From contig NZ_AUMC01000010.1 in the NCBI RefSeq assembly GCF_000443995.1, positions 806,001 to 870,000 on the forward strand: a DNA stretch of 64,000 bases, in the 5' to 3' direction. Made by a program: the position numbers and the translations under genes. Below the pieces are notes generated by a model that was given only the letters and a program-made list of their open reading frames with translations, was not told the origin of the DNA and searched no databases. Positions 31,458 to 59,633 of the stretch are shown here, piece by piece. Position 1 is the first letter of the stretch, and the number at the start of each line of letters is the position of its first letter. The DNA comes from Bacteriovorax sp. BAL6_X (lineage in GTDB: Bacteria > Bdellovibrionota > Bacteriovoracia > Bacteriovoracales > Bacteriovoracaceae).

Positions 31458-32446
31458 TCAAAAAAGACGACATTCAAAATATTTTAAGTACCCAAGGGCT
31501 TGAAGTATGGGGTGTCGTCGCTGAATCTAAACCGAAGTCCTTAGAACGCTTCAAAACTTGGATTAAAGATGGCCTTCATGGTGCTCTAAGCTACCTTGCC
31601 GATGATCGGGCTATCAAAAGAGAAGATCTAAAAAACTACTACCCCGATATTAAATCCACACTTGTTATCGCTTTTGATTACTCTCATATCGCTCGTAGTG
31701 CTAAGAAGTTCTATGATAGTGGAGAGAGTAATGGTCTAAAAATCGCTAACTACGTCGTCGGTTTTCAAGGACGCGACTATCACTATGAAGTGAGAGATAA
31801 ATTACAGGTAATAGGAGAGGAGTTACAAAAACTCGACCCTGAGTTAGAGTTTAAATTCTCTCTTGATACACAACCAATTCTAGAGCGTGACTTTGCTTAT
31901 CAGTCAGGACTAGGCTGGTATGGCAAGAACTCAATGCTTATTAATCGCCACATTGGTAGCTACTTTATCATTGGCTCTCTCTTACTTAATAAAGAAGTTG
32001 AGGCCCCAAATGATAAATTTGAAACAGATCACTGTGGTAAGTGCACACGTTGTGCGGATGCATGCCCAACAGATGCCATTGATTTAGAAAAGCGTACAAT
32101 TATTGCTGATAAGTGCATCTCAACTTTCACTATCGAACACTTTAAAGAGATTGAAGCACCTGTTGGTTTTGATAAGGCACATGGTGAGATCTTTGGCTGT
32201 GATATTTGCCAGGATGTTTGTCCTTGGAATATGCGCTTAGAGAGAAAGCTTGAAACAGATTCTGAAGCGTTTAAAGAAAGTGGTAAGCAATTTATCGACT
32301 TCTTTTTAACAAGGCCTGTAAGTGTAATCATTGAAGAATTAGAGGCCATGAGTAACCGTGAGTATCGTCGCCAATTTAAAGGCACCCCACTAGAGCGTAC
32401 TGGACGTGTGGGGATGCTTAAAAATCTTAAGTATTATCTAGATTAG
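31454..32446 (+). CDS. queG: Epoxyqueuosine reductase QueG
   Basis: The last step of queuosine synthesis: reduction of epoxyqueuosine in tRNA using cobalamin and two [4Fe-4S] clusters. The 330 residues match the family. The N-terminal half is the cobalamin-binding domain. The cluster Cys lie in CGKCTRCADACPTDAID and GCDICQDVCPWN, and the C-terminal HEAT-like part ends in REYRRQFKGTPLERTGR, typical of QueG. It starts inside the stop of the pyruvate kinase-ferredoxin gene (ATGA overlap), so the two are translationally coupled. This coupling makes a link between the fused ferredoxin and QueG worth testing, though it may be chance. Confidence 0.95.
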   Translation: MIKKDDIQNILSTQGLEVWGVVAESKPKSLERFKTWIKDGLHGALSYLADDRAIKREDLKNYYPDIKSTLVIAFDYSHIARSAKKFYDSGESNGLKIANYVVGFQGRDYHYEVRDKLQVIGEELQKLDPELEFKFSLDTQPILERDFAYQSGLGWYGKNSMLINRHIGSYFIIGSLLLNKEVEAPNDKFETDHCGKCTRCADACPTDAIDLEKRTIIADKCISTFTIEHFKEIEAPVGFDKAHGEIFGCDICQDVCPWNMRLERKLETDSEAFKESGKQFIDFFLTRPVSVIIEELEAMSNREYRRQFKGTPLERTGRVGMLKNLKYYLD

Positions 32447-33232
32447 ACCTATCTTCTTCGCATACTTTTTAATAAAACTTCCGGCCATATCTGGTAGGTG
32501 GTGGCCAAGCTTCTTTGGTTTCTCTATCGTTACGATATTGACAAGATCTTCTAAAAGTTTTGCGAAGTTTTCCATGCCTTCTTTTCCAACAACTACATCA
32601 TCTTCACCTGAGATAAGGTGAATGTTGTGACCGCTTAAACTCATATTGTGCTTTTGCTCTTTGATCCATGGAAACATTGTATCAGGAGCTAGGTGAGTTG
32701 AGACAAGTTCTGCGCGTGCTCTTACTGTTGCTTGATAAAATGGAGTATCAAAGACATGTGTGACACCTTCTGGTGGAACACCGAAGCCAACACCGCAGTG
32801 GAATGTTTCATAACCATCAAAGATTCCGTTTTGAACCGCAAGAAGTGAAGTGAGGGCCCCTAGAGAGTGGCCACCAACTAAAACTTTGTTACTTTGGTTA
32901 GGGTAAGCTTCTTTTAATTTAGTTAGAGCCTGAATAAACAAATTAGGTGCATCATTTTTAAAGTCTTCGAAAGATGCCACATCATGAAATGACCCGGTAA
33001 AATGACCTGGTTGGTCAAAAATTAAAGTAGGGACTCCATCATCACAAAGTTTCTGTGCCCAAGAGAAGATACTTATCTTGTGAGACGTGTAACCATGAGT
33101 AAAAATGGCGTATCCCGTATCTTTAAGCTTTGTGCTTGGTGGTCTAAAGAGGAGGGCGTTAACTGTTGTTTGCCCTTGAGTTAAAATAATTTTATCGATA
33201 CTTAAAAACTTTTCATTCATAGCGGATATCAT
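32438..33232 (-). CDS. Alpha/beta hydrolase
   Basis: A 264-residue serine hydrolase of unknown substrate. The nucleophile elbow is GGHSLGALTS, the oxyanion region is TRGYTSH-like (FTHGYTSHKISIFSW), an acidic residue follows in SGEDDVVV, and the catalytic His is in LGHHLPDM near the C-terminus, all in family order. There is no signal peptide, so it is cytoplasmic. The last nine bases overlap the end of queG on the other strand. The promoter region lies between this gene and tRNA-Phe. It could act on short acyl esters or lipids, but nothing in the sequence decides this. Confidence 0.85.
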   Translation of the reverse strand: MISAMNEKFLSIDKIILTQGQTTVNALLFRPPSTKLKDTGYAIFTHGYTSHKISIFSWAQKLCDDGVPTLIFDQPGHFTGSFHDVASFEDFKNDAPNLFIQALTKLKEAYPNQSNKVLVGGHSLGALTSLLAVQNGIFDGYETFHCGVGFGVPPEGVTHVFDTPFYQATVRARAELVSTHLAPDTMFPWIKEQKHNMSLSGHNIHLISGEDDVVVGKEGMENFAKLLEDLVNIVTIEKPKKLGHHLPDMAGSFIKKYAKKIGLI

Positions 33233-33328
33233 AATTAAAGATATCTCAAATTAAAATTAAAAAACTTTTTAATTTTCTATTGACGAAGGAGAGATAAACC
33301 ATTAATTTAATGGAACCAAATCATTTAT

Positions 33329-33404
33329 GCCCTGATAGCTCAGTTGGTAGAGCAAAGGACTGAAAATCCTTGTGTCCGTGGTTCGAATCCGCGTCGGGGC
33401 ACCA
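33329..33404 (+). tRNA. tRNA-Phe (anticodon GAA)
   Basis: A complete 76-base cloverleaf with acceptor GCCCTGA/TCGGGGC (one G-T pair), D stem GCTC/GAGC, anticodon stem AGGAC-TGAAAAT-with GAA in the loop, T arm with GGTTCGAATCC, and encoded ACCA. Its last 20 bases are repeated with one extra G at 33683-33703, and its GGGGCACCATAAAAA end and flank recur at 34397-34411. Confidence 0.96.
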
Positions 33405-33405
33405 T

Positions 33406-33439
33406 AAAAAAGCTACTTCTTTGAAGTAGCTTTTTTTTT
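33406..33439 (+). terminator. Terminator of tRNA-Phe
   Basis: AAAGCTACTTC (33409-33419) pairs with GAAGTAGCTTT (33423-33433) around a three-base loop, followed by more T. Confidence 0.92.
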
Positions 33440-33677
33440 GCCTTTTTTCCACCCAAACATCGCACACTACAAATCCAAAAAGGATTTTCAGGACTTTGCT
33501 CGTTTGAGCAACCTGACCGAAAAAACGTGCCCAAAGCGCACGTTTTTACTTCTTAAGTAATAAGTAAAAAGACAGTCAATGTTAGTGCGAGTTCGGGCAG
33601 GCCGTAGCCCACGATGGGCGGAGGTGTCCAACGAGCAGGATGCGGTGAACTTTATACAAGGGAATTTTCTGGATGAT

Positions 33678-33703
33678 TGGTTAATCCGCGTCGGGGGCAC
33701 CAT
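33678..33703 (+). repeat. Partial copy of the tRNA-Phe 3' end (att-like)
   Basis: TGGTT-AATCCGCGTCGGGGGCACCAT matches tRNA-Phe 33381-33405 except for a missing CG and one extra G. A copy of only the 3' part of a tRNA next to the intact gene is what tRNA-targeting integration leaves behind. No integrase gene is seen between the copies. Confidence 0.8.
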
Positions 33704-33720
33704 CTTTTAGAATCGCTTAA

Positions 33721-33747
33721 AAAGCCGGTCTTGGTACTGGCTTTTTT
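33721..33747 (+). terminator. Intrinsic terminator after the tRNA 3' copy
   Basis: AAAGCCGGT (33721-33729) pairs with ACTGGCTTT (33736-33744), with one G-T pair, followed by T. It stands at the same relative place to the tRNA copy as the other terminator to the tRNA, and may be the original tRNA-Phe terminator. Confidence 0.82.
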
Positions 33748-33829
33748 TATTTCTTTCAGATACTTATATTAGTTCGAATATTTACTTAATTTTAATACCC
33801 TTGGCGGTCGAGTCAAATTAGAGGTTACT

Positions 33830-34396
33830 ATGAGTTCATTTTCTATATTTGAAGAAAATGGATTAGGTCTACTTAGAGATAATAGAGTACGTTTAGTAGA
33901 ACACAATCCAAACTGGTCAAAAGTCTTTGATGTTGAGTCTAAAAGAATTTTAAATGCTTTAAATCTTGATTCTCTTAAACTGTACCATTGTGGAAGTACG
34001 GCCATAACTGGAATTGTAGCGAAGCCAATTTTAGATATTGTTGGAGAGGTTAAAAATCTGGATGAATTAGATAAAAAGAAGAATGCACTTGTCGCTATTG
34101 GATATGAGTATAAAGGCGAGTATGGGATTGAGGGGCGAAGATACTCAGTTCTTTACAATGAGGATAAAACAATTGGATATTCTCACTTACATATTTTTAA
34201 GTCTGGCAGTAGTGAGCTTTTTAATCATGTCTTATTTAAAGATTATTTACAGCAGAACTTTGATGCTGCGCTTAGATATGAAACCGTTAAGAAGTCTCTT
34301 GATGTACCTCGAAATGAATACTCTGATGCAAAAACAAAAAATATTTTAGAATTAGTTGAAGAGGCAAAATCCTATTTTTCGAAATTCGTCTATTAA
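33830..34396 (+). CDS. GrpB-family (UPF0157) nucleotidyltransferase-fold protein
   Basis: A 188-residue protein with the family signature: VEHNPNWSKVFDVE near the start, then HCGSTAITGIVAKPILDIVGEV (residues about 48-69), the GS-x-D-x-nucleotidyltransferase-like motif of GrpB proteins. Its biochemical role is not well established. GAGG lies about six bases before the ATG. The gene sits between partial copies of the tRNA-Phe 3' end, with its stop codon inside the left arm of the hairpin at 34393-34442, so it looks like cargo of a small inserted unit. Its base composition is close to that of its neighbours. Confidence 0.88.
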   Translation: MSSFSIFEENGLGLLRDNRVRLVEHNPNWSKVFDVESKRILNALNLDSLKLYHCGSTAITGIVAKPILDIVGEVKNLDELDKKKNALVAIGYEYKGEYGIEGRRYSVLYNEDKTIGYSHLHIFKSGSSELFNHVLFKDYLQQNFDAALRYETVKKSLDVPRNEYSDAKTKNILELVEEAKSYFSKFVY

Positions 34397-34442
34397 GGGG
34401 CACCATAAAAATCATCTACTTTTTATGGCCCTCCCCCCTTAA
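34393..34442. repeat. 50-base two-part inverted repeat containing a tRNA-Phe 3' end copy
   Basis: TTAAGGGG (34393-34400) pairs with CCCCTTAA (34435-34442), and inside it CCATAAAAA (34403-34411) pairs with TTTTTATGG (34420-34428). GGGGCACCATAAAAA (34397-34411) is identical to the end of tRNA-Phe plus its flank (33397-33411). GGCACCAT recurs at 34450-34457. It may be a terminator, a folded attachment site or an element end. Confidence 0.8.
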
Positions 34443-34570
34443 TGGTTTAGGCACCATTATACACTTGTTACAAATTAATACTTATTAGTCTTAAATTGAC
34501 TCATTTTAAGTTGTTCTAAATTCAAGAAGTTAATAATATTTTTTATGTTCTAAGTGAAAAGGAGATAAGT

Positions 34571-36103
34571 ATGAGTCAACCACAAGAGACTAAAGTTCAT
34601 AAATTAATCTATGGTGTTTTAGGTGTAATTATTCTTGGCCTTGTTATAGTATATTTTCAAGATACAAATAAAAATAAAGTGTCTACTATATCAACTTTGA
34701 ATAGTCGTATTGATAAAATTAAAGAAACAGACATTAATCGAAATTATGAAATCAGTGATGAAGAGGCACAGAGAATTGCGACCGAGGCCTATATATATCT
34801 CTATCCATTGATCACAATGGATTTAACTAGAAGGCAGCAGACATTATCTCCAAAAGGGTCTCGACCTGGAGCAGGCCCTATTAATAACTTTCATCATATG
34901 AGAGAATACCCTGATTCTAGTTTTAGAGATGTAGTAAGACCTAATTTTGATACACTTTATTCTATCGCCTGGCTTGATTTAACAGCTGGGCCAGTTAAGA
35001 TTTCGATACCCAGTTCAGAAGGTCGGTTTTTCTTGATGCCATTTTACGATATGTTTACAGATTCATACGCGGTGTTAGGAAGCCGTACAACGGGACATGA
35101 AAAACAAGATGTATTTGTTGTGGGCCCTAATTTTAACGGTGAGGTACCTGAGGGGTATACGCTAGTTAAGTCTCCAACTTTTATGACTTGGGTTATAGGT
35201 AGAACACAAACTAATGGAGCAAAGGATTATAAAGCTGTCCGTAGTTTTCAAAATGGTATGAAGATAACGAGTGTGTTGAGTGAGGATCATTTAACAATTG
35301 AGCAACTATCTCAAAAACTAAAATTTCCAGATGTTGATATTGAACGATCACCACTTAAAATTGTAAATGAAATGGATTCAATTACATACTTTAAGTATGG
35401 CATGGACCTTTTGAAACTACATGCTCCTCATTTAACTGATACTGATATCATTTTGAGAATGAAAAGAATCGGATTAAATATTAATGAAAAATTAAATATT
35501 GATAATCTCCCGTCAAACATACAGTCTGCTTTATCTAGCTCACGCGAAGTTGCACAAGCTTTTATGAAGGAGGCAAAGCCTAAACTTGCAAATATTGTAA
35601 ATGGCTGGCAGATGAATACAACAAGCATGGGGACTTACGGTAACTTTTATTTAAAACGTGCTCTAGTTTGTTTTATTGGCCTAGGGGCATTACCTGCTCA
35701 AGATGCAATCTATCCACTCAATTTTATGGACTCTAACGGTGATATTTTGCAAGCTAGCAACGATTATATAATAAAATTTGAAAAAGGAGAGTTACCACCG
35801 GCCAAGGCGTTTTGGTCAATTACAATGTACGATGAAGAGGGCTTTGCTGTTGATAATGAACTTGACCGATACGTGATTGGCTCTCGTGATGATTTGAAAT
35901 TTAATGAAGATGGTTCTTTAAATATTTACATTCAAGCGGAGAGACCAAGTGAAGATAAGGTTGGAAATTGGCTTCCATCTGCAAAGAAAGGTGTTATGGG
36001 TGTTACACTACGCTTGTATAACCCTGAGGTTTCTGCTTTAGATGGAAAATGGTCACCGCCTAAAGTCATTAAGTCAGTTTCTAGAAATCTTGCATCTGAA
36101 TGA
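34571..36103 (+). CDS. DUF1254/DUF1214 protein
   Basis: A 510-residue membrane-anchored protein. An N-terminal helix (about residues 10-28: KLIYGVLGVIILGLVIVYF) is followed by a DUF1254 domain starting near AYIYLYPLITMDLTRRQ and a C-terminal DUF1214 domain with PPAKAFWSITMYDEEGF, RYVIGSRDDLKFNEDGS and NWLPSAKKGVMGVTLRLYNP. The family is widespread, often in cell envelopes, but its function is not established. AAAGGAG lies about six bases before the ATG. It lies next to the tRNA-Phe island and could be further cargo. The last codons form a hairpin with the following T-rich region. Confidence 0.88.
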   Translation: MSQPQETKVHKLIYGVLGVIILGLVIVYFQDTNKNKVSTISTLNSRIDKIKETDINRNYEISDEEAQRIATEAYIYLYPLITMDLTRRQQTLSPKGSRPGAGPINNFHHMREYPDSSFRDVVRPNFDTLYSIAWLDLTAGPVKISIPSSEGRFFLMPFYDMFTDSYAVLGSRTTGHEKQDVFVVGPNFNGEVPEGYTLVKSPTFMTWVIGRTQTNGAKDYKAVRSFQNGMKITSVLSEDHLTIEQLSQKLKFPDVDIERSPLKIVNEMDSITYFKYGMDLLKLHAPHLTDTDIILRMKRIGLNINEKLNIDNLPSNIQSALSSSREVAQAFMKEAKPKLANIVNGWQMNTTSMGTYGNFYLKRALVCFIGLGALPAQDAIYPLNFMDSNGDILQASNDYIIKFEKGELPPAKAFWSITMYDEEGFAVDNELDRYVIGSRDDLKFNEDGSLNIYIQAERPSEDKVGNWLPSAKKGVMGVTLRLYNPEVSALDGKWSPPKVIKSVSRNLASE

Positions 36104-36214: not shown

Positions 36215-36718
36215 TTAGTATGCACCATCTGAGTAAGTTAATTCGTAACTATGACTATAGATTTCTAGAATGTTACCAAAAGGGTCTTCCATATAAATCA
36301 TACGGTATGGCTTTTCTCCTGGATAATAGTAACGTGGTTTTTCCATTCTTTTCTTTCCGCCAGCTACGACGATTTTTTCTGCAAGCTCTTCAAGATTCGG
36401 ATCTTGTACACAAAAGTGAAAGACGCCTGTTTTCCAGTATTCAAAATTATCTTCTGGGTTTTCTTGATTTTTAAATTCAAAGATTTCAACACCAATTCGG
36501 TCACCTGTTGATAGGTGTGCAATTTTAAAGCTTTCCCATCCTGAACCAAATACATCGGTACACATCTCTCCAATTGGAGACTTTTCTTCTTTTATTACTG
36601 TTGGCTTCATAATTAAATACCAACCTAGGACTTCTGTGTAGAATTCGACTGCCTTCTCTAAGTCTGGGACCGATATTCCAATATGAGAAAATGTTCTAGG
36701 GTAAGTTTTATTTGTCAT
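36215..36718 (-). CDS. Glyoxalase/bleomycin resistance (VOC) protein
   Basis: A 167-residue VOC-superfamily metalloenzyme or binding protein. It opens with FSHIGISVPDLEKAVEFYTEVLGW; the second module has FHFCVQDPNLEELAEKI and ends with YMEDPFGNILEIYSH, with metal-ligand His and Glu in the usual places. The ATG at 36718 has GGAGG six bases before it, so the upstream in-frame ATG (36730) is rejected. Substrate unknown. It is divergent from the LysR-family gene at 36814, across 95 bases, the classic layout of a LysR regulator and its target. Confidence 0.88.
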   Translation of the reverse strand: MTNKTYPRTFSHIGISVPDLEKAVEFYTEVLGWYLIMKPTVIKEEKSPIGEMCTDVFGSGWESFKIAHLSTGDRIGVEIFEFKNQENPEDNFEYWKTGVFHFCVQDPNLEELAEKIVVAGGKKRMEKPRYYYPGEKPYRMIYMEDPFGNILEIYSHSYELTYSDGAY

Positions 36719-36813
36719 AATGACCTCCATTTTTCTTCCATTATATTTTCAAGTAGTGATAATATAAAATTATTATTTGTTATTGTTTTGATAATTATAT
36801 GTTATAGTGTTGC

Positions 36814-37698
36814 ATGGTTAATAGTCAGTGGTTACAGACATTTACGACCCTAGTTGAACAAGGTCATTTTACTAAGACTGCACATAAGTTGAACATGACT
36901 CAGCCAGGGGTCAGTCAGCATCTACAAAAGCTTGAAGAGTCCATTGGATATAAGCTATTAAATAAAGTAGGTAAGGGCCTTGAGCTTACTCGTGAAGGCC
37001 AGATTTTATACGACTATGCTTTGGAGAAGATCGAACTTGAAGCGGGAATGTTTGATAGGCTAGACTCTGAAGACGAATATTCTGGAAGTATTAAAATTGC
37101 ATGTTCAGGATCATTGGCCATGTTGATCTATCCATTATTCTTAGAACGACAAATCAAATATCCAAATTTAAAAATTAGTGTTGAGGCCGTCCCAAATTAT
37201 TTGGTAAAAAGTAAAGTGATGAATAATGAAGTTGATATTGGAATATCGACATCTGCATTCAATTCACATTTACTTGAAGAAAGAAAAATCGGTGCAGAAG
37301 AGTTGTGCATAGTTTATCCAAAAGGATTACGTCTTACACATAGTTCTTTATATGATTCTTTAGCGAAACTGGGCTTCATTGATCATCCTGATGGTAAGTT
37401 TTATTTGGAGAGATTTTTAAATGAAAACTTGGATGTTACAGGTAATATTAAAGAGATTCAATCAGTTACTTATATTAATCAAATAAATCAAATACTCATT
37501 CCTGTATCGATGGGTCTTGGTTTTACTGTTATGCCTAGAAAGTATGTTGAGTCCATATCTTTACGTTCAAAGGTTTCAATCTTTACAAGCAAGAAGCCTA
37601 TCTACGACCCTTATTTTCTTATTCATAAGAAGAATAAAGTCTTTGGTAAGAGATACAATTGGTTTATGGATCAGATTATTAATATTGTTTCAAAGTAG
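36814..37698 (+). CDS. LysR-family transcriptional regulator
   Basis: A 294-residue regulator. The N-terminal helix-turn-helix (about residues 1-60) has the family pattern FTTLVEQGHFTKTAHKLN, TQPGVSQHLQKLEESIG and LLNKVGKGLELTREGQ. The C-terminal half is a periplasmic-binding-protein-like effector domain (IKIACSGSLAMLIYPL onwards). It probably controls the divergent VOC gene. The effector is unknown. The ATG has no Shine-Dalgarno; a TATAGT box at 36803-36808 would start transcription at or next to the A of ATG, so the message may be leaderless. Confidence 0.92.
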   Translation: MVNSQWLQTFTTLVEQGHFTKTAHKLNMTQPGVSQHLQKLEESIGYKLLNKVGKGLELTREGQILYDYALEKIELEAGMFDRLDSEDEYSGSIKIACSGSLAMLIYPLFLERQIKYPNLKISVEAVPNYLVKSKVMNNEVDIGISTSAFNSHLLEERKIGAEELCIVYPKGLRLTHSSLYDSLAKLGFIDHPDGKFYLERFLNENLDVTGNIKEIQSVTYINQINQILIPVSMGLGFTVMPRKYVESISLRSKVSIFTSKKPIYDPYFLIHKKNKVFGKRYNWFMDQIINIVSK

Positions 37699-58640: not shown

Positions 58641-59633
58641 TTAGCGTTGGAAAAGTGGGTGAGTTCCGACACCCGTGTATTCACTAGTGATGTAGATAGA
58701 TGCCACAATAAATGATGTTACGATTATAGTTGATAGTAGGAGTGTAACATTTTCTGACATTCCTTTCTCTTCTAAATAATCTACGAGTCTTGCCTGTCCC
58801 CAGATACCAAAAACGATCGTGATTACAAAGAGAATCCCTGTTGAAACCAGTGTTAGGGCAATGTTTGAAATCTCTGTATAATCACTATCTGGTGCAATAT
58901 TGGCCGTTGTGTTCTTTGTAATTTTACCATTTGGTAGAATGAGCGGCCCTCCGGATGTCTTAGCATCCAGAGAGACGTTTCTTTTTACTGTATCTGTAGG
59001 AAGATAGAAGCGAGAGAAGGCCGGTTTGTCATTTGACTGATAGGCCTCAATCGTAAACTTAATGATTACTTCTTCACCTACAACAAGTCCGCCATCAAAG
59101 TTCTTGCTCCAGTTGATACCGAAGTCAAAACGGTTGATTTTAAAACTTCCTTCAAAGTAAATACCATCTTTATTTGTCCAAGGGTCTGTACGCTTACCTA
59201 AGTACTTAAAGCTAATAGGTACAGTCTTTGTTTTATCTTTTACCGTAAGAGTAAGCTTTGTATTAGCTTTATTATCTTTTAAAACAATAGCTTCAGTATT
59301 TTTAAATTTTATAATTGGAAAGTTCTCTGCATTGAAGAAATCATTCTTTTTTAAATGCTGATCTCTCTTCTTATCAAAAGTGTTGATACTTTTAACAATA
59401 ATCTCACCCTGAATCTCACTGATCTTATTCTCATCCTTCTTAAAGTAGATTGTGTAGTCATCAAATTGGCCTTCAACGTCAGTCAGTGCCATATACTTGA
59501 TGCTAAACTTAAGCTTAGAGTGCTCTTTATTTACAATATAAGAAGTTGAACCAAAAGTATTAAGGGAAATTAATAGGGTAATAAAAAGGTGCCCAATCAG
59601 GCACCATTTGTAATTATTTAACAAATTTCTCAT
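58641..59633 (-). CDS. YceI-like lipid-binding protein with C-terminal membrane helices
   Basis: A 330-residue protein. The N-terminus is a signal sequence or anchor (LIGHLFITLLISLNTFGS). Residues about 30-195 form a YceI domain (YIVNKEHSKLKFSIKYMALTDVEGQF, FNAENFPIIKF, RFDFGINWS), a beta barrel that binds isoprenoid lipids in periplasmic proteins. After a spacer come two membrane helices (about 255-277 and 300-320). The two added C-terminal helices are unusual for YceI. The start overlaps the end of the pyrophosphatase gene by 20 bases, so the two are coupled. Confidence 0.82.
   Translation of the reverse strand: MRNLLNNYKWCLIGHLFITLLISLNTFGSTSYIVNKEHSKLKFSIKYMALTDVEGQFDDYTIYFKKDENKISEIQGEIIVKSINTFDKKRDQHLKKNDFFNAENFPIIKFKNTEAIVLKDNKANTKLTLTVKDKTKTVPISFKYLGKRTDPWTNKDGIYFEGSFKINRFDFGINWSKNFDGGLVVGEEVIIKFTIEAYQSNDKPAFSRFYLPTDTVKRNVSLDAKTSGGPLILPNGKITKNTTANIAPDSDYTEISNIALTLVSTGILFVITIVFGIWGQARLVDYLEEKGMSENVTLLLSTIIVTSFIVASIYITSEYTGVGTHPLFQR

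Follow-up and report, generated by a model that had tools for sequence, protein, structure and literature searches.

The stretch of Bacteriovorax sp. BAL6_X DNA analysed here (64,000 nucleotides, called the window) contains a tRNA-Phe gene that is followed by partial copies of its own 3′ end, and the question raised by this locus is by what process such copies came to lie there. According to the original prediction, they record two nested or serial integrations by integrases that use tRNA 3′ ends, none of which is left in the window. Comparison of the sequence with that of relatives suggests a different answer, in which the locus is rather probably the decayed remnant of a tRNA-anchored gene-cassette array, to which a recombinase acting in trans would have added the cassettes one after another at tRNA 3′ ends.

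The tRNA-Phe locus of the window

The presumed array in the window consists of a non-coding tail module, with a layout like that of rttR in Escherichia coli, and one probable GrpB cassette. Its anchor is an intact tRNA-Phe(GAA) gene (33329..33404, plus strand), recognized by both ARAGORN and Rfam where it had been predicted. Immediately 3′ of the gene lies an intrinsic terminator (33406..33441, plus strand), composed of a 14-bp perfect inverted repeat and a T run. The left flank, upstream of the tRNA, holds an alpha/beta-hydrolase-like gene (32438..33232, minus strand) which is conserved in ten loci, the window included; its homologues upstream of tRNA-Phe in the nine compared loci are 41-48% identical. 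The right flank holds glyoxalase-type and LysR-type genes (36215..37698), for which 88% and 60% identical proteins are encoded in genome G081, 3.3-3.9 kb behind tRNA-Phe. This flank is common to G081 only, and the right-flank test therefore yields no clean empty/filled pair; no such strain pair was found among the compared loci.

Unit 1 (33405..33702, plus strand) is a gene-free module of 298 bp, resembling a sequence of Bacteriovorax sp. DB6_IX. Besides the tRNA terminator it contains a copy of the anticodon arm in inverted orientation and a G+C-rich stretch, and it is closed by a tRNA tail. The inverted copy (33480..33501, minus strand) reproduces the D/anticodon arm of the tRNA-Phe over 22 nt, with 91% complementarity to 33350-33371, and had been overlooked in the original prediction. 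Two further features had likewise escaped attention, namely the tail repeats behind tRNA-Gly and tRNA-Leu of the same genome, considered below, and a 182-bp stretch in the middle of unit 1 that is 92% identical to sequence behind the tRNA-Phe of DB6_IX (G004, same genus), with one match per genome in both. This middle part has a match at an E-value of 0.001 in 5 of the 368 genomes of the phylum, and an exact-pattern scan of genome contigs matched DB6_IX only. Non-coding stretches resembling unit 1 come first behind tRNA-Phe in G010, G017, G019 and G090 as well, their tails resembling the tRNA of each respective genome.

The tail that closes unit 1 (33679..33702, plus strand) is a mutated copy of the tRNA-Phe 3′ end, which corresponds to the predicted partial copy of 26 nt and confirms it as real, 14 nt being exact. 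Its sequence, GGTTAATCCGCGTCGGGGGCACCA, is the tRNA 3′ end minus two T-loop bases and plus one extra G, and these indels render it invisible to a gapless search with up to three mismatches. Its arm score, by the profile of the cassette site described below, is -72.2, and it is therefore not a cassette site. No match was obtained by blastn of 33446-33760 against plasmids and phages or of 33470-33665 against E. coli, and exact-pattern scans of IMG/VR with two patterns gave 0 matches. A cmscan search of 33000-34800 (E up to 1) returned the tRNA and three weak sub-gathering matches, with no Rfam family of rttR type at unit 1. A minus-strand ORF of 71 aa was considered as a real gene and dropped; it had no Pfam family and one plasmid tblastn match at E 0.5.

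As a separate observation, the motif GAGCAGGATGCG is shared by several G+C-rich non-coding modules situated behind or near tRNA genes, in the window (33590-33660) and in loci L070, L137 (3467-3560), L139 and L045. The places concerned are tRNA-Phe and tRNA-Leu of the present genome, the arrays of both G083 and G087, and a locus of G098 in which units of ~190 bp are repeated in tandem behind tRNA-Val.

Unit 2 (33703..34405, plus strand) is a probable GrpB gene cassette, judged by its gene, its closing site and a homologue that is a cassette in G083. It opens with a terminator-like hairpin and T run (33724..33748, plus strand), visible in the sequence and by eye resembling a cassette start in G019. 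The gene that follows (33830..34396, plus strand) encodes a protein of 188 aa whose assignment to the GrpB family was borne out (PF04229, E 2.3e-37). This protein is 68% identical to that of the G083 cassette gene and 67% identical to that of a gene located 1.9 kb behind tRNA-Phe in G020, where no site is recognisable. Directly 3′ of the GrpB stop codon lies the next tail copy (34397-34411): the sequence GGGGCACCATAAAAA occurs exactly twice in the window, here and at 33396-33410, and in none of 100 dinucleotide shuffles. The copy belongs to a degenerate cassette site (34377..34405, plus strand), composed of an arm followed by an GGGGCACCA tail.

The observation with which the analysis began thus stands for the tRNA-Phe, for the copies at 33679 and 34397 and for the GrpB gene; the third copy, GGCACCAT at 34450-34457, is a chance occurrence. 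This word is found 5 times in the window versus 0.74 expected, and the sequence preceding the copy at 34450 scores -36.7 with the site profile, similar to the -33.5 obtained for an unrelated occurrence at 59600.

The cassette site and its arrays in relatives

The cassette site is ~41 bp long, with the consensus TtaAGtATtGCAGTTCGATAATCGtCCACgTCGGGGCACCA, and shares only its last 6-11 nt with the anchor tRNAs. Relatives carry it in series of up to six copies, placed on one strand downstream of tRNA-Phe and tRNA-Leu, and successive copies are usually separated by one or a few small genes. A strict pattern (up to 3 mismatches) was found in 28 of the 129 family genomes and a looser one in 36 of the 368 phylum genomes, 10 of those 36 being outside the family; the reversed controls gave 0/129 and 0/368, respectively. 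None of the six genomes of the window's own genus carries the strict pattern.

A profile was built from 54 sites, for which reversed sequence (1.49 million positions, both strands) served as the null and gave a maximum of 0.66. The window site has six mismatches to the pattern and is therefore outside the training set of this profile. It scores 15.0, above the null maximum, as compared to 40-67 in most relatives. Among the 127,938 positions of the window, its arm taken by itself comes in at rank 21, and the score of this arm is not reached by any of the 295 other GGCACCA words in the loci examined, yet the arm falls below the range of relatives; the site is therefore classed as degenerate. The site of the GrpB cassette in the window is probably no longer functional.

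When sites below a profile score of 12 are ignored, and L141 is omitted because it overlaps L204, 95 sites remain in 46 loci, and in 45 of these loci all sites are on one strand. Conservation across the 95 sites begins at T(-12), ends at CCA and drops at once beyond; the outermost conserved bases (-12, -9 and -6) were in no search pattern. Arms are also seen without the tail in L193, L137, L191 and L251, where the arm is present and the GGGGCACCA part is replaced; these may mark breakpoints or decay.

Among 32 loci fetched by means of the site, a tRNA-Phe or tRNA-Leu lies upstream on the same strand in 18 and another tRNA in 2, while the piece contains no tRNA in 12, many of these being on short contigs. 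One of the clearest arrays is that of G018, where a 2-Mb contig carries six sites within 3.8 kb behind tRNA-Leu; others are those of G019, G073, G126 and G083. Beyond the family, the sites are preceded by tRNA-Leu in L247, L248, L251, L253 and L254 (L247 being the same place as L251) and by tRNA-Arg in L255. A tail-only scan behind tRNA-Phe in 18 relatives, extending up to 20 kb, found small genes closed by GTTCGATAAYCG...GGGGCACCA in G007, G010, G017 and G019. Two observations of another sort were made in these surveys. In L097 (G106 C2:12000-28000), a tRNA-Asp has two exact 16-nt copies of its tail 4.6 and 7.6 kb downstream. A similar stretch occurs behind tRNA-Phe in two genera (L085 of G015 and L007 of G005), and may belong to an insertion element.

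The content of the arrays was assessed in 22 chosen loci, which provided 47 site-to-site intervals and 109 ORFs of at least 80 aa. The median interval is ~1.2 kb. Exactly one ORF is present in 22 of the 47 intervals and two in 8; altogether, 25 hold more than one or none. Of the ORFs, 73 of the 109 ORFs are on the strand of the site. An intrinsic terminator is located within the first 75 nt in 18 of the 47 intervals, compared to 1 of 235 control windows. A typical cassette starts after CACCA, often with an intrinsic terminator, and continues with a gene and then the ~41-bp site that repeats the tRNA end. The genes are diverse, with Pfam names that include GFA, GrpB, ORF6N, glyoxalase, SnoaL, AHSA1, cupin, GNAT, DUF1330 and Rce1-like, in addition to a HigB-like toxin (below cut-off), which has an HTH partner, and a nucleotidyltransferase accompanied by HEPN.

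Proposed cassette mobility and alternative origins of the arrays

Several genes appear in more than one array. GFA is present in four different arrays, and ORF6N in arrays behind tRNA-Phe and tRNA-Leu, at a locus behind tRNA-Met and three times within a single array. Among 67 DNA matches of at least 150 bp, all wholly within the array spans of 37 chosen loci, 10 stop no more than 10 bp from a tail in each of the two partners, where random placement averages 0.01; conservation of the site as such partly favours match ends at tails. In the comparison that included left flanks (130 matches of at least 180 bp), homology between these flanks ends just past the tRNA, within about 60 bp of its 3′ end, and different genes follow. 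The recurrence of the same genes in different arrays and the ending of homology at tails point, indirectly, to mobility of the cassettes.

The interpretation first given to the locus is therefore retained in part. Support for serial insertion at the 3′ end of tRNA-Phe comes from the left flanks and from the arrays of relatives, which reach six tail-closed units and among which the layout of the window is not fixed; this support does not extend to nesting. The proposal that both copies are of the same kind and stem from an ordinary tRNA integrase found no support, as the copy at 33679 is a mutated tRNA tail on a non-coding module and that at 34397 is part of a different, widespread site of ~41 bp.

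The analysis demonstrates the site together with its strand and its position behind tRNA ends, as well as the re-use of genes across arrays and the stopping of homology at tails. To account for these, a mechanism may be proposed in which small cassettes would be inserted successively where a tRNA-Phe or tRNA-Leu ends. Strands would be exchanged within the shared GCACCA/GGGGCACCA by a site-specific recombinase, most likely one of the tyrosine type that acts in trans; the exchange is placed there because the preceding bases differ between site and tRNA. Exchange at this position would leave the body of the tRNA intact, and a new terminator would arrive with the cassette. The recombinase could, speculatively, be one of the tRNA-Phe/Leu integrases of the family, or a resident one. 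Weighing against the array reading are the degenerate site of the window and the absence of the strict pattern from its genus, the fetched loci that have no tRNA-Phe or tRNA-Leu upstream, the intervals with several ORFs or none, and the weak co-occurrence of the G110-type integrase with the sites, detailed below.

The view of the original prediction, whereby the copies are whittled-down remnants of ordinary, serially inserted elements that carried an integrase and used tRNA-Phe, is unlikely. In its favour, tRNA tail copies are the classic scar of such events, and integrases next to tRNA-Phe, relevant to a search that had been advised, were found: a tyrosine integrase lies directly behind and antisense to tRNA-Phe, intact in L190 (G110 C52) and interrupted by a stop in L189 (G085 C64). 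The integrase of the G110 type was located in 30 loci, next to tRNA-Leu in 13, tRNA-Phe in 2 and others in 3, with no tRNA in the piece in 12, and it co-occurs weakly with sites (15 of 28 site genomes versus 37 of 101 others). Searches with PF00589, TIGR02249 and the G110 integrase, however, revealed among the matches listed none that co-locates with the sites. Among the PF00589 matches listed for 21 site genomes, which are draft assemblies, only that in G090 is within 20 kb of a site, and it adjoins a neighbouring tRNA-Leu. Within this family, the ordinary islands with an integrase at tRNA-Leu exhibit a longer identity with the tRNA end and flank and have no arm, in the four of six loci whose far end was found. 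Conservation of the cassette site extends to places with no integrase nearby. The lack of an integrase noted in the window is typical of the arrays, almost none of which carries a recombinase, rather than a peculiarity of this locus.

It is improbable that the arrays represent tail repeats only, in which slippage or unequal exchange amplified the tRNA end as in rttR and genes were trapped by chance. Such a process fits unit 1 and other repeats of the same genome, in which a tail scan (30 loci of 31 tRNAs found) detected an exact downstream tail copy of at least 12 nt at three loci: Phe, Gly and Leu. The tRNA-Leu (L070, C10:128788-128870) is followed by two identical 145-bp units and then a third tail with a terminator, the tRNA-Gly (L064, C3:394379-394451) has a tandem tail repeat of ~119 bp, and GGCGCTAACGCTTG is common to the spacers of both. 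A similar scan with 11-nt words recovers the known tyrV/rttR of E. coli, with three 19-nt copies 178 bp apart; unit 1 accordingly represents a variant of a layout already known. Amplification leaves unexplained, however, the common arm that precedes the tail beside unrelated genes in many genera, as well as the same genes in different arrays.

Quite improbable is the suggestion that the site is an RNA signal, for tRNA-like 3′ processing or termination at mRNA ends, and not a recombination site. In favour of such a signal, the site often follows a stop codon at a short distance, with a median of 29 nt over 33 cases. Conservation nevertheless ends at CCA and homology between arrays ends at tails, and the 7 of 47 intervals holding only genes of the opposite strand argue against an mRNA 3′-end signal.

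An integron-derived array devoid of its integrase (CALIN) is very improbable. Small, varied genes, toxin-antitoxin pairs included, and the prevalence of one orientation would be in keeping with it, but no integron integrase over the TIGR02249 cut-off was detected in the 129 family genomes, and seven tested sites show no attC-like folding better than that of shuffles (z -1.59 to +1.00). The accidental sharing of short words, of which the copy at 34450 is a case, is a negligible explanation, refuted for the two main copies by the absence of matches in shuffled and reversed controls and by the low maximum of the profile null.

If the array reading preferred here is extended beyond the window, it is possible, though somewhat less likely than not, that the Bdellovibrionota have a gene-capture system of their own. 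Such a system would employ gene-sized cassettes, a ~41-bp recombination site with a tRNA-like GGGGCACCA end, placement behind tRNA-Phe or tRNA-Leu, and a recombinase other than IntI; replacement terminators would spare the essential tRNA, and the whole would be a counterpart of the integron derived from tRNA-targeting recombination. To our knowledge, no system other than integrons has been well described in which single genes are stockpiled at one fixed place on the chromosome. If true, a second stockpile, anchored at tRNAs, would show another route to an integron-like design, and would account for the way in which predatory bacteria acquire accessory genes and toxin-antitoxin pairs. The defined sequence of the site would offer a handle for finding the recombinase. 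The locus is also a reminder that a partial tRNA tail behind a tRNA gene is not necessarily the scar of an island since lost. What the window preserves is a worn remnant, and its interest lies in the phylum-wide system that it indicates.

Comparison with known systems

Tycheposons are tRNA-associated integrative elements of marine bacteria; they are larger and possess their own recombinases, and are set apart from the present arrays by this description. One review mentions them (PMC11389934). A search of the open-licence PubMed Central literature, judged by titles and the starts of abstracts, found no description of tRNA-tail gene cassettes.

The nearest precedent found is that of the tandem ssrA islands of Dehalococcoides. 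These are tandem units bounded by copies of the 3′ end of the RNA gene, with direct repeats of 20 bp; 16 have an integration module with serine recombinases and 15 do not (PMC3146451). The ssrA islands and cis-mobilizable elements are like the arrays in their tandem units, bounded by RNA-gene tails and in some cases devoid of integration genes, while the arrays differ in having gene-sized units, a separate conserved arm and no module found (PMC3146451). Cis-mobilizable or accretion arrays resemble them in that the tail-bounded units here are without recombination genes; the integrase islands examined are without the arm. Islands of the G110 type target the same tRNAs, tRNA-Phe and tRNA-Leu, within the same family, but differ in having their own integrase, a longer identity between attachment sites and no arm. 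The tyrT/tyrV rttR of E. coli, in which a tRNA tail and a non-coding spacer are repeated behind a tRNA, is a fitting parallel for unit 1 and for the tRNA-Gly and tRNA-Leu repeats of the same genome, although, unlike the arrays, it contains no genes having their own site.

Integron arrays and CALINs share with the present arrays the serial small cassettes, the predominance of one orientation, a common closing site and the varied accessory genes, although the arrays are looser than textbook integrons. They differ in that the arrays are anchored at a tRNA rather than at attI, have no IntI over the cut-off and use a site that is neither palindromic nor foldable, and also in that many of the cassettes begin with a terminator. 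In a published study, Integron Finder is reported to have detected no integrons in a Bacteriovorax genome (PMC12642874). The arrays would function like those of integrons and are built on the targets of tRNA islands, departing from the former in the features of IntI and a foldable attC, and from integrase islands in that of an integrase of their own.
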